Of a stretch of DNA of 64,000 bases, positions 54 to 53,200 are shown piece by piece (position 1 is the stretch's first letter; every line of letters begins with the position of its first letter). Both the position numbers and the translations under genes were made by a program. The stretch comes from Acridotheres tristis (Eukaryota > Chordata > Aves > Passeriformes > Sturnidae): the NCBI GenBank assembly GCA_037013685.1, contig JAQOXP010000056.1, forward strand, positions 124,001-188,000, in the 5' to 3' direction. The notes under the pieces were generated by a model that made no database searches, was not told where the DNA came from, and worked only from the letters and a program-made list of their open reading frames with translations.

Positions 54-234
54 CTTTCCGGAGGAAGGGTCCCCGTGCCGTGTCCAGGATGAAGGCGGGG
101 CTGAGGCTGAAGTTGCTCATGGGGTTGTGGCTCATGGCCCCGAAGGAGGCGTTGGCCACCACGGCGTCCAGGGCGGCCGGGGACAGCGGGTGGCCCAGGA
201 ACGAGCACAGGCGCTGCACGCTGCCACGGAGGTC
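54..234 (-). CDS. SULT2B1: SULT2B1-like coding exon 5 (residues 189-248)
   Basis: 181 nt, acceptor CCCCAG, donor AAAG|GTGGGG. Encodes [17 protein letters not shown] through [13 protein letters not shown] and FLRK. The last coding exon should follow left of the window. Its first 51 nt are repeated upstream. Confidence 0.88.
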
Positions 235-3200
235 CTGGGGACAGCAGGGGACATTGGGGACACTGAGGGGACACTGGGGACAGCGGGTGGCCCAGGAACG
301 AGCACAGGCGCTGCACGCTGCCACGGAGGTCCTGGGGACACATTGGGGACACTGGGGACACATTGGGGACACTGGGGACACTGGGGACACAGTGGGGACA
401 TTGGGGACACATTGGGGACACTGGGGACACATTGGGGACATTGGGGACACTCAGGGGACATTGGGGACATTGGGGACAGCGGGTGGCCCAGGAACGAGCA
501 CAGGCGCTGCACGCTGCCACGGAGGTCCTGGGGACACAGTGGGGACATTGGGGACACATTGGGGACACTGGGGACACATTGGGGACATTGGGGACACGTT
601 GGGGACAGTGACAGTGACATTGGGGACATTGGGGACACTGAGGGGACACTGGGGACACACTGGGGACACATTGGGGACAGTGACAGTGACATTGGGGACA
701 CATTGGGGACAGCGGGTGGCCCAGGAACGAGCACAGGCGCTGCACGCTGCCACGGAGGTCCTGGGGACAGCGGGGACACTGGGGACACATTGGGGACACT
801 GGGGACATTGGGGACATTGGGGACACTGGGGACACATTGGGGACACTGAGGGGACACTGGGGACAGCGGGTGGCCCAGGAACGAGCACAGGCGCTGCACG
901 CTGCCACGGAGGTCCTGGGGACACATTGGGGACATTGGGGACACATTGGGGACACAGTGGGGACACTGGGGACACTCAGGGGACATTGGGGACACTGGGG
1001 ACAGCGGGTGGCCCAGGAACGAGCACAGGCGCTGCACGCTGCCACGGAGGTCCTGGGGACACAGTGGGGACAGTGACAGTGACATTGGGGACACATTGGG
1101 GACATTGGGGACACTGAGGGGACATTGGGGACAGTGACAGTGACATTGGGGACACTGGGGACACATTGGGGACATTGGGGACAGCGGGTGGCCCAGGAAC
1201 GAGCACAGGCGCTGCACGCTGCCACGGAGGTCCTGGGGACACAGTGGGGACACATTGGGGACACTGAGGGGACACATTGGGGACACATTGGGGACATTGG
1301 GGACACTGAGGGGACATTGGGGACACTGGGGACAGTGACAGTGACACTGGGGACACATTGGGGACAGCGGGTGGCCCAGGAACGAGCACAGGCGCTGCAC
1401 GCTGCCACGGAGGTCCTGGGGACACAGTGGGGACACATTGGGGACACTGGGGACACATTGGGGACATTGGGGACACTGGGGACAGTGACAGTGACATTGG
1501 GGATACTGGGGACACATTGGGGACACTGGGGACACATTGGGGACATTGGGGACACATTGGGGACACTCAGGGGATTTGGAGACATTTGGGGGATTTGGGA
1601 CACTTGGGACATTTGGGGACATTGAGGTGACCCTGAACTGACACTGGGGACACTGGGGGTGATACTGAGGTGTCCCCACCTGTCCCCAGGTGTGTTTTAG
1701 GGGTCCCCAGGTGTGTTTTAGGTGTCCCCAGGTGTCCCCAGGTGTGTTTTAGGGGTCCCCAGGTGTGTCCCCACCTGTCCCCAGGTGTCCCCAGGTGTCC
1801 CCACCTGTCCCCAGGTGTCCCCAGGTGTGTCCCCAGGTGTCCCCAGGTGTCCCCAGGTGTGTTTTAGGGGTCCCCAGGTGTGTCCCCAGGTGTCCCCAGG
1901 TGTCCCCAGGTGTGTTTTAGGGGTCCCCAGGTGTGTCCCCAGGTGTCCCCAGGTGTCCCCAGGTGTGTTTTAGGGGTCCCCAGGTGTGTCCCCAGGTGTC
2001 CCCAGGTGTCCCCAGGTGTGTTTTAGGGGTCCCCAGGTGTGTCCCCAGGTGTCCCCACCTGTCCCCAGGTGTCCCCAGGTGTCCCCAGGTGTGTCCCCAG
2101 GTGTCCCCACCTGTCCCCAGGTGTCCCCAGGTGTCCCCACCTGCTGCAGTTCCTCGTAGCTGATCCAGAAGAAATTTTCCCTCCCTCGGAGCTGGAGCCA
2201 CCCCCGGACGTGCTGGAACCAGGAGCCGAAGGGCACTGGGGACACAGGGGGACATTGGGGACATTGGGGGGATTGGGGGACATTGGGGACATTGGGGACA
2301 CCCCATGGGACATTGGGGACACCCCTGGGGACATTGGGGACATTGGGGACACAGGGGGACATTGGGGACATTGGGGGACATTGGGGACATTGGGGACATT
2401 GGGGGACATTGGGGACACAGGGGGACATTGGGGACATTGGGGGACATTGGGGACATTGGGGACATTGGGGGACATTGGGGACATTGGGGGACATTGGGGA
2501 CATTGGGGACATTGGGGACATTGGGGACATTGGGGGGACATTGGGGACATTGGGGACACCCCGTGGGACACTGGGGACATTGGGGGACATTGGGGACATT
2601 GGGGACACAGGGGACATTGGGGACATTGGGGACATTGGGGGACATTGGGGACATTGGGGACACAGGGGACATTGGGGACATTGGGGACATTGGGGACATT
2701 GGGGACACAGGAGGGACATTGGGGGGACATTGGGGACATTGGGGACATTGGGGGGACATTGGGGGGACATTGGGGACATTGGGGACATTGGGGACATTGG
2801 GGACACAGGGGACATTGGGGACATTGGGGACACAGGGGACATTGGGGACATTGGGGACATTGGGGACACAGGGGACATTGGGGGGACATTGGGGGGACAT
2901 TGGGGACATTGGGGACATTGGGGGGACATTGGGGACATTGGGGGACATTGGGGACATTGGGGACATTGGGGACATTGGGGACACAGGAGGGACATTGGGG
3001 ACATTGGGGACACAGGGGGACATTGGGGGACATTGGGGACATTGGGGACATTGGGGACACAGGGGGACATTGGGGACATTGGGGGACATTGGGGACATTG
3101 GGGACACAGGAGGGACATTGGGGACATTGGGGGACATTGGGGACATTGGGGACACAGGGGGACATTGGGGACATTGGGGACACCCCTGGGGACACAGGGG

Positions 3201-50200: not shown

Positions 50201-53200
50201 CCTAATAAAATCCCCAACAAATCCCCAATAACCCCCCAATAAATCTGTATAAAATCCCCAATAAATCCCCAATAAATCCCCAATAAATCCCCAATAAATT
50301 CCCCAATAACCCCCCAATAAACCCCCAATAAATCCGAATAAATTCCCCAATAAACCCCCAATAAATCTGAATGAATTCCCCAATAAACCCCCAATAAATT
50401 TCCAATAAATCTTTATAAATTCCCCAATAAATCCCCAATAAATCCCCCAATAAACCCCCAATAAATTTGTATAAAATCCCCCAATAACCCCCCAATAAAC
50501 CCTCATAAAATCCCCAATAAATCCCCAATAAGCCCCCAATAAATCTGTATAAAATCCCCCAATAACCCCCAATAAATTCCCAATAAACCCTAATAAAATC
50601 CCCAATAAATCCCCAATAAATCCCCAATAAATCCCCAATAAACCCCCAATAAACCCTAATAAAATCCCCAATAAATCCCCAATAAATCCCCAATAAACCC
50701 TAATAAAATCCCCAATAAATCCCCAATAAATCCCCAATAAATCCCCAATAACCCCCCAATAAACCCTAATAAAATCCCCAATAACCCCCCAATAAATCTG
50801 TATAAAATCCCCCAATAAATCCCCAATAAATCCCCAATAAACCCCCAATAAACCCTAATAAAATCCCCAATAAATCCCCAATAAATCTGTATAAAATTCC
50901 CCAATAACCCCCCGTTTCCCAGCCCGTCCTCACTCTGTTTCTGCACCAGCTGCAGCCCCAGGACGTTTTTGGGGGGCCCGGCGTGGGGGTCGTGCCCCGC
51001 CCCCCCCCGGTGCTCCCTCCTCAGGGCGGCCTCGAGCTCGAGCTCCAGGGGCTGCAGGTGAGCCTGGCCCGCACCTGGGACAAAATAAAACAAAATAAAA
51101 CTAAATAAAATAAAATTAATTCAATTTGGGGCCGTTCCGGGAAATTCTGAACGTTCCACGGAGATACACGGGGGGGGGGGGGGGGGAAAAATCCGGGGGG
51201 AAAAGGAGAGAAAATGGGAATTTCACAAGAGGTTTACACAAAACACCCCAATTTTCACCCAAAATCCTCAGGATTTTACACAAAACACCCCAATTTTCAC
51301 CCAAAATCCTCAGGATTTTACACAAAATCCCCGAATTTTCACCCAAAATCCTCAGGATTTTACACAAAATCCCCGAATTTTCACCCAAAATCCTCAGGAT
51401 TTTACACAAAATCCCCGAATTTTTACCCAAAATTCTCAGGATTTTACACAAAATCCCCAATTTTCACCCAAAATCCTCAGGATTTTACACAAAATATCCC
51501 AATTTTCACCCAAAATCCTCAGGATTTTACACAAAACACCCCAATTTTCACCCAAAATCCTCAGGATTTTACACAAAATACCCCAATTTTCACCCAAAAG
51601 CTTCAGGATTTTACCCAAAACACCCCAATTTTCACCCAAAATCTCCAGGCTTTTACACAAAATACCCCAATTTTCACCCAAAATCCTCAGGATTTTACCC
51701 AAAATCCCCAAATTTTCACCCAAAGTCCTCAGGATTTTACACAAAATCCCCGATTTTTCACCCAAAATCCTCAGAGTTTTACCCAAAATCCCCGAATTTT
51801 TACCCCAAAATCTTCAGGATTTTACACAAAATACCCCAATTTTCACCCAAAATCCTCAGAGTTTTACACAAAATCCCCGAATTTTTACCCAAAATCCTCA
51901 GTTTTACCCAAAATACCCCAATTTTCACCCAAAATCCTCAGAGTTTTACACAAAATCCCCGAATTTTCACCCAAAATCTTCAGGATTTTACACAAAATCC
52001 TCAGAATTTTACACAAAATTCCTCAGAGTTTTACCCAAAATCCTCAGGTTTACACAAAATCCCCGAATTTTCACCCCAAAATCTTCAGAATTTTACCCCA
52101 AATCTTCAGGTTTTTACCCCAAAATCCCCAAATTTTTACCCCAAAATCCTCAGAGTTTAACCCAAAATCCCCAAATTTTTACCCCAAAATCCTCAGAATT
52201 TTTACACAAAATCTTCAAATTTTTAGCCCAAAATCCTCAGAATTTCATTCAAAATCTTCAGATTTTTACTTCAAAATCCTCAGTTTTACACAAAATCTTC
52301 AGGTTTTCACCCCAAAATCCACAAATTTTTACCCCAAATACTCAGAACTTTACCCAAAATCCCCCCCAACCCAAACAGCACATAAGGATTTGTTTTTTCA
52401 TGCGTTTTCGGCATTTGGGATTTTCCAGGATTTGGGGTTTTTTCAGGGGTTTTTGGGGTCAGGGATTTTGGGGTGAATCCGGGGGGTTTTGGGGTCTCAC
52501 CTGGCGGGGCCTGCACGTGCAGGAGTTGATTTTTGGTGGTTTTTGAGCCATTTTTGAGCCGTTTTGAGCCGGATTTTTGCAGAATTTTGGGATTTTTTTC
52601 CATGAATTTTGGGTTTTTTGGGGTCAGGGATTTTGGGGTGAATTCTGTGGATTTCGGGGTCTCACCTGGCGGGGCCTGCACGTAGAAGTAGGGGCTGAAG
52701 CCGCGCCCAAATGTCGATTTTTGGTGTTTTTTTGAGCCATTTTAAGCCGGATTTTGGGGATTTTTTCAGGGATTTTGGGGTTTTTTCAGGGGTTTTGGGG
52801 TCAGGGATTTTGGGGTGAATCCGGGGGGTTTTGGGGTCTCACCTGGCGGGGCCTGCACGTAGAAGTAGGGGCTGAAGCCGTGCAGGTGCACGCAGACGCT
52901 CTGCCCCTCCCCCGTCACCCCGAACACCCGCAGGATGGGGGAGGGGTGGGGCCAGCCCGGGAGGCCGGGGGGAGGGGTGCCTGGGGAAATGAAATAAAAT
53001 TAAATTAAATTAAACAAAATAAAATAAAACAAAATAAAACAAAATAAAATAAAATAAAATAAAATAAAATAAAATAAAATAAAATTGGGGGGGATTTGGG
53101 GGGATTTTGGGGAATTTTTGGGGATTTTAGGAGGTTTTGGGGGAATTTGGGGAATTTTTTTGGGGATTTTGGGGAATTTTTTGGGATTTTGGGGAATTTT

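Follow-up and report, generated by a model that had tools for sequence, protein, structure and literature searches.

What does it mean when the edge of an exon, complete with its splice site, stands several times over in the intron beside it? The question is raised by a window of 64,000 nucleotides in the genome of Acridotheres tristis (1.04 Gb in 85 contigs), namely positions 124001-188000 of contig JAQOXP010000056.1 (C55 below), in which exons of RPS9, POLD1, PRMT1 and SULT2B1 can be mapped. When these exons were compared with the introns of the window by blastn-short, accepting matches of at least 20 nt and at least 40 bits, extra copies were found at 17 of the 82 internal exon edges, 56 copies in total. 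They belong to POLD1 (12 of 48 edges), PRMT1 (3 of 20) and SULT2B1 (2 of 8), with none at the 6 edges of RPS9. The arrays are exon stuttering, a kind of repeat that has already been named in chicken (Hron et al. 2026, PMC12954441), and here it is extended to a further genome and to further genes. Very probably they have grown locally, with the real edge as recurrent source, and the additional splice sites that they carry, called decoys in what follows, would mostly be left unspliced.

All 56 copies are in direct orientation and lie in the adjoining intron; the same screen found no copy on the reverse strand and none in other introns of the window. In 10 shuffled intron sets the best match of at least 20 nt reached 26.3 bits against the 40-bit threshold, which places these junction-spanning tandem arrays far beyond chance. 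The exon part of the copies is 21-64 nt long (median 39) and covers at most 0.55 of an exon, and an edge has between 1 and 10 extra copies. The copy reaches the border exactly at 14 of the 17 edges, while at POLD1_8D, POLD1_21D and PRMT1_9A the match begins 2-6 nt off the border because of changes near the junction. The splice signals of the copies are nearly identical: AG or GT is intact in 54 of the 56, a number that rises to 55 when PRMT1 exon 9 is credited with a one-base gap offset. Another 2 copies, more decayed, were detected only through their intron flank. A preliminary description of this stretch, made by inspection, had counted 17 places with about 60 copies of 20-75 nt of exon, one to ten extra copies per place, with AG/GT nearly always kept and the far end of the exon never copied, and in all of this the screen agrees with it. 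It had also pointed out that acceptor-side copies always lie upstream and donor-side copies downstream of the real exon. The order is real, but no special rule is needed for it, since no other geometry is open to a tandem duplication that breaks once in the exon and once in the intron.

Are exon borders then special targets? For answering this, a base was counted as covered when some 30-nt stretch containing it recurs, at 90% identity, at a distance of 60-600 bp. Cover is 0.695 in introns and 0.141 in exons. Approaching the acceptor it falls from 0.79 at 300 nt upstream to 0.55 at 100, 0.39 at 30 and 0.24 at the border, and inside the exon it is 0.20 at 25 nt, 0.05 at 60 and 0.15 at 90 (33 exons); the corresponding positions from intron to exon at the donor give 0.68, 0.55, 0.46, 0.29, 0.20, 0.08 and 0.12. 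Under four settings of the measure, introns range over 0.51-0.74, borders over 0.17-0.29 and positions 60 nt inside exons over 0.05-0.13. Exon borders are thus invaded less than introns, with a graded fall and no peak at the border. The proposal that intronic repeats grow by capturing borders, which the preliminary description had made together with the suggestion of comparing repeats and borders against chance, does not hold in its preferential form, as the cover profile of the window contains no border excess and rules such capture out. Borders are rather the places where pervasive intron arrays thin out. Neither can RPS9 serve as an exempt gene in the same repeat-rich setting, as had been thought, and we have dropped this contrast: only 6 internal edges are available, 0 of 6 against 17 of 76 edges gives p=0.34, and the repeat fraction over its introns is 0.32, compared to 0.66-0.87 in POLD1, PRMT1 and SULT2B1.

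The phenomenon is not confined to three neighbouring genes, as it had first appeared. The whole contig, gene-rich and 315,676 bases long, has a repeat fraction of 0.08-0.78 per 10 kb, repeats being dense as far as about 240 kb and sparser after that. The search for further arrays began with a codon model for which the window exons were the training set, continued with a self-search and ended with selection by eye. Among 60 automatic repeat groups, 16 fall in the window; 23 outside it were viewed, and 17 segments (18 arrays) were retained where a real exon with a clear edge could be judged by eye. Those at 1884, 33199, 56161, 65830, 240691 and 301417 were viewed but excluded, and 1884, 65830 and 33199 were re-added in one later test. 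The curated set thus holds 35 arrays (17 in the window and 18 outside) with 121 decoys, located between about 17 kb and 270 kb on the contig. The outside arrays lie in about ten more genes, whose names, given by eye or from known proteins, are provisional; we take them to be U2AF2, LENG8, PPP1R12C, a troponin T, a troponin I, LMTK3, a CACNG, CYTH2, PRKCG and RCN3. U2AF2 (C55:17425-23855, L012-L013) has three exon-edge arrays, of 4, 7 and 5 decoys, so that the gene of a splicing factor, the one that recognizes acceptor sites, has arrays itself. At C55:56161-56304 and C55:207578 there are coding-like minisatellites whose open frames mimic exons in the codon scan, the former with 81 BLAST matches, mostly of a CAGGTGAGGGGCACT-type unit. 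As a control, a 9.5-kb stretch with 4 exons on a 115-Mb contig, which we presume to be the PRMT1 paralogue PRMT8, was taken; its repeat fraction is 0.000, and the best match of its exons is 20 nt and 16 bits, as expected by chance.

We think that growth from the real edge accounts best for these data. In a repeat-rich contig resembling a dot chromosome, introns would be filled by tandem arrays grown locally, and a duplicated unit ending inside an exon would carry the junction, with a little coding sequence, into the intron. The unit would be born by tandem duplication, in many cases where exon and intron have a few bases in common, and then be multiplied by slippage or unequal exchange. The real edge would be the recurrent source and the decoys recent imprints that later decay, and the arrays would stop inside exons as selection removes longer intrusions. 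Most decoys would remain unspliced, because the real site yields the shortest in-frame exon and splicing at a decoy would in most cases lead to a frameshift or a stop. Exon definition is an established principle, and it may protect the real site here.

Two arrays illustrate how a unit may be born. At the last SULT2B1 exon in the window (acceptor-side array 179..1415, minus strand like all arrays in the window), the edge at 234 has 7 decoys with 56 nt of exon identical in all, and exon and intron have TGTCCCC in common at the inner breakpoint (8 bases in the breakpoint count). At the POLD1 exon starting at 35950 (acceptor side, 35912..36530), 7 decoys with 39 nt of identical exon are spaced by 82-83 bp, and the 7 nt AGGTGAT are common to exon and distal intron at this breakpoint. 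Such sharing was measurable in 18 of the 35 arrays. Five of them, with matches of 12-15 bases, probably represent missed units and were dropped; at least 3 shared bases occur at the inner breakpoint in 8 of the 13 arrays kept, for null means of about 0.2-1.1 per array.

The coding part of the copies provides a further way of following the arrays, since the differences among copies are synonymous more often than expected under neutral decay. Over the 35 arrays, 47 of 84 variant events are synonymous, for 25.5 expected from the same mutation types and CpG (cytosine-guanine dinucleotide) state; wrong-frame controls give 15 of 83 (24.7 expected) and 17 of 81 (23.9 expected). If the count is limited to decoy-lineage events, those in which the real edge and another copy have the majority base, 34 of 56 are synonymous against a neutral expectation of 19.9, and the wrong-frame controls give 7 of 56 (16.7) and 13 of 56 (15.0). 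A search by intron flank added 4 decayed decoys to the 121, with which all events become 48 of 97 (0.49, compared to 0.56 before) and decoy-lineage events 33 of 67 (23.0 expected, P=0.005); with three arrays of uncertain edge in addition, decoy-lineage events are 38 of 75 for 25.1 expected. Simulated one-way seeding gives synonymous fractions of 0.39-0.50 for all events and 0.37-0.47 for the decoy lineage, and simulations of seeding, decoy-to-decoy copying or exchange with the real edge give 0.36-0.47 for the latter, so that most of the bias can be explained by decoys being seeded again and again from the real exon. An initial reading of strong constraint on all decoys came from pair counts, with difference rates of 0.023/0.009/0.071 at the three codon positions, but such pairs are non-independent, and the event counts, the flank-found decoys and the simulations together cut it down. 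The codon-position bias of intronic copies is a testable handle on array growth and on a possible rewriting of exons.

Several observations weigh against growth from the real edge and should be considered together. Its polarity is weak: over 16 arrays the Spearman correlation between distance to the real edge and identity has a mean of -0.21, and clear polar growth was rejected on this signal. Strict locality is shown for the window exons only; in the automatic search of the contig 59 of 381 coding-like segments also match far away or on the other strand, and there are 1,091 far matches for 1,506 near ones. Breakpoints with shared bases (microhomology) are suggestive only, given a lenient null and the five arrays dropped. 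The contig is a putative avian dot chromosome, judged by its gene set, size and repeat style. In the codon data, the 34 of 56 synonymous decoy-lineage events obtained before the four decoys were added have P 0.013 at a simulated fraction of 0.45 and 0.027 at 0.47, and two arrays, the donor array at U2AF2 21417 with 9 of 9 synonymous events and the one at POLD1 47121 with 7 of 8, are above the one-way simulations.

These two arrays also speak for concerted evolution, according to which unequal exchange or conversion would swap the real edge and the decoys, with amino-acid-changing decoys being selected against. The nine events of the U2AF2 donor array include CGG/AGA/AGG changes, and four-gamete mosaics appear in 14 of its 21 informative site pairs and in 6 of 10 of those of the POLD1 array (donor side, 46149..47159; 10 decoys spaced by 85-133, the exon part reaching 39 nt). 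Averaged over 24 arrays, decoys diverge from one another by 0.021 at codon positions 1+2 and by 0.058 at position 3, with 0.091 for the intron flank; positions 1+2 lie below the flank in 20 of the 24, although a search by exon similarity itself lowers exon divergence and the four decoys that it missed were more decayed. The decoy-lineage excess over neutral expectation is in line with exchange too, but with the flank-found decoys the fraction of 0.49 comes close to one-way seeding. Both standout arrays had been noticed prior to testing, and without them 22 of 43 events are synonymous for 15.5 expected (P=0.022). Array by array, 14 are above and 10 below the expected synonymous count, at U2AF2 23736 as many as 7 of 9 events are nonsynonymous, and simple exchange simulations without population selection did not raise the synonymous fraction. 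As an account of the arrays, concerted evolution seems to us rather doubtful, albeit compatible with growth from the real edge for some of them; the narrower idea that in the POLD1 47121 and U2AF2 donor arrays decoys evolve as if coding, swapping places with the real edge, is equally tentative. If it were true, the intron would serve as a reservoir in which synonymous edge variants are kept, subject to second-order purifying selection, and from which the exon edge is overwritten again and again.

The remaining alternatives are far less probable. The decoys might be used, so that the arrays would be regulatory and serve alternative or decoy splicing. Their sites are indeed strong: of the 121 decoys of the 35 arrays, 117 have AG/GT preserved (2 of the 4 exceptions are gap offsets), and the decoy equals or exceeds the real site in score for 92% of 63 donors and for 52% of 58 acceptors. 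Such strength is nevertheless expected of recent copies, and for 112 of the 121 decoys splicing at the copied site would end in a frameshift or a stop, which makes toleration likelier than use. Just 9 of the 121 would be in frame and stop-free, which is not what regulated alternative splice sites should give, and the decoy spacings are spread over all three remainders modulo 3 (45/36/40). For chicken prmt1, two variants have been reported, which differ in a 5' alternative exon (PMC5608299). Strong decoy sites are apparently tolerated, judging from the sequence, and we regard their regular use as very unlikely. Even less credit can be given to an artefact of assembly or polishing, by which repeats would have been collapsed or stuttered. 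Regions of this kind are known as hard to sequence, but the units differ among themselves in length and bases, the pattern occurs at 35 edges of one contig with none in the PRMT8 stretch, and for PHF8 Hron et al. report that the general structure was verified by nanopore reads (PMC12954441).

The window arrays rest on a map of 45 exons, all on the minus strand: 4 of RPS9, 25 of POLD1, 11 of PRMT1 and 5 of SULT2B1. Human protein sequences were used as tblastn probes, and splice junctions were set by GT/AG, phase and protein match, some of them being called by eye. The spliced translations of POLD1, PRMT1 and SULT2B1 agree with the same-named proteins of solved structures, while RPS9 was identified by its tblastn match only. 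A small POLD1 exon (about human residues 155-193) gave no match in tblastn of the intron 49162-52842 on the minus strand; the exon would lie between 52843 and 49161 and may have diverged or been lost, or else be very short. Also in POLD1, the 81 nt at 47252-47332 (minus strand) allow two readings, one as a very short GT-AG intron and the other as an open, in-frame continuation of the exon with a proline/asparagine-rich repeat. Directly upstream of the first SULT2B1 exon found, a CACCTGGGCA minisatellite occupies 7785-8238, with an acceptor-plus-donor-like CAG-GTG core in many of the units seen.

Besides the three arrays already located, the screen, followed by alignment of the copies and by flank search where named, gave the following ones. 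On the acceptor side, SULT2B1 has 6 decoys with 26-52 nt of exon at the exon starting at 5676 (5625..6731). In PRMT1 the exon starting at 15271 (15237..15472) has 1 decoy with a one-base gap near the junction, and that starting at 22951 (22896..23748) has 6 decoys with 52-56 nt of exon and a spacing of 126-142 bp. Acceptor arrays of POLD1 are found at the exons starting at 30566 (30545..30678; 1 decoy, 22 nt of exon), 38782 (38752..39138; 2 decoys, 31 nt) and 40566 (40505..40918; 2 decoys, 62 nt, the farther copy being more decayed). On the donor side, the PRMT1 exon ending at 16579 (16091..16603) has 3 decoys with 25 nt of exon. The donor arrays of POLD1 comprise those of the exons ending at 30469 (30314..30513; 1 decoy, 45 nt), 35798 (35290..35829; 3 decoys, 31-32 nt), 37201 (36865..37264; 2 decoys, 64 nt) and 45538 (45169..45577; 2 decoys, 40 nt). 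At the exon ending at 33123 (32905..33145), 1 decoy comes from the exon screen and 1 from the intron flank; at 44469 (44355..44503) the single decoy has lost its donor GT; and at 52843 (52666..52880) there is 1 decoy with 38 nt of exon and 1 more, decayed, found via the flank.

How do these arrays stand beside known systems? Intron gain by tandem genomic duplication, for which there is an AGGT model and of which potato RdRp is a reported example (PMC4974935), likewise involves a tandem duplication that carries a splice site. Here, however, an existing intron hosts the copies, the exon is unchanged and no new intron appears; the exons join into full-length-like proteins, and intron gain was discarded on these grounds. 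Intronic minisatellites or variable number tandem repeats also fill introns, and in avian GC-rich genes the introns have been described as tandem-repeat and rich in G-quadruplexes (G4) (PMC6792250), but the ordinary unit is wholly non-coding, whereas here it spans the junction.

The closest relative is the one that the preliminary description missed when stating that no class had been named. Hron et al. (PMC12954441) speak of sequence stuttering, and of exon stuttering when an exon edge is included, on chicken dot chromosomes; the latter term occurs in no other paper of the literature searched. The text of that paper reports 236 introns in 115 chicken genes, 190 of these introns being on dot chromosomes, with an exon part of 20-187 nt (median 36), 1-44 copies (median 4), more than 90% of copies within 1 base of the border, and extreme polymorphism of intron length. 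Its main text does not name POLD1 and contains no word starting with synonymous, codon, purifying, microhomology or frame. In both cases a repeat-filled intron contains direct tandem copies of part of the adjoining exon, including its edge and splice site, and sliver length and copy number are similar (the median here is 39 nt). Copies start at the border, exactly so at 14 of our 17 edges, the host introns of POLD1, PRMT1 and SULT2B1 are covered by tandem repeats to 0.66-0.87, and a paralogue on a larger chromosome has none, which in our case refers to the one presumed PRMT8 stretch of 9.5 kb and 4 exons. The difference is in the genome, chicken there and another one here. To the work of Hron et al. 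the present analysis adds tests at the level of codons, breakpoints and border profile. A genetic instability that has only recently been described is thereby seen in one more genome, and in conserved genes such as POLD1, PRMT1 and the splicing factor gene U2AF2.

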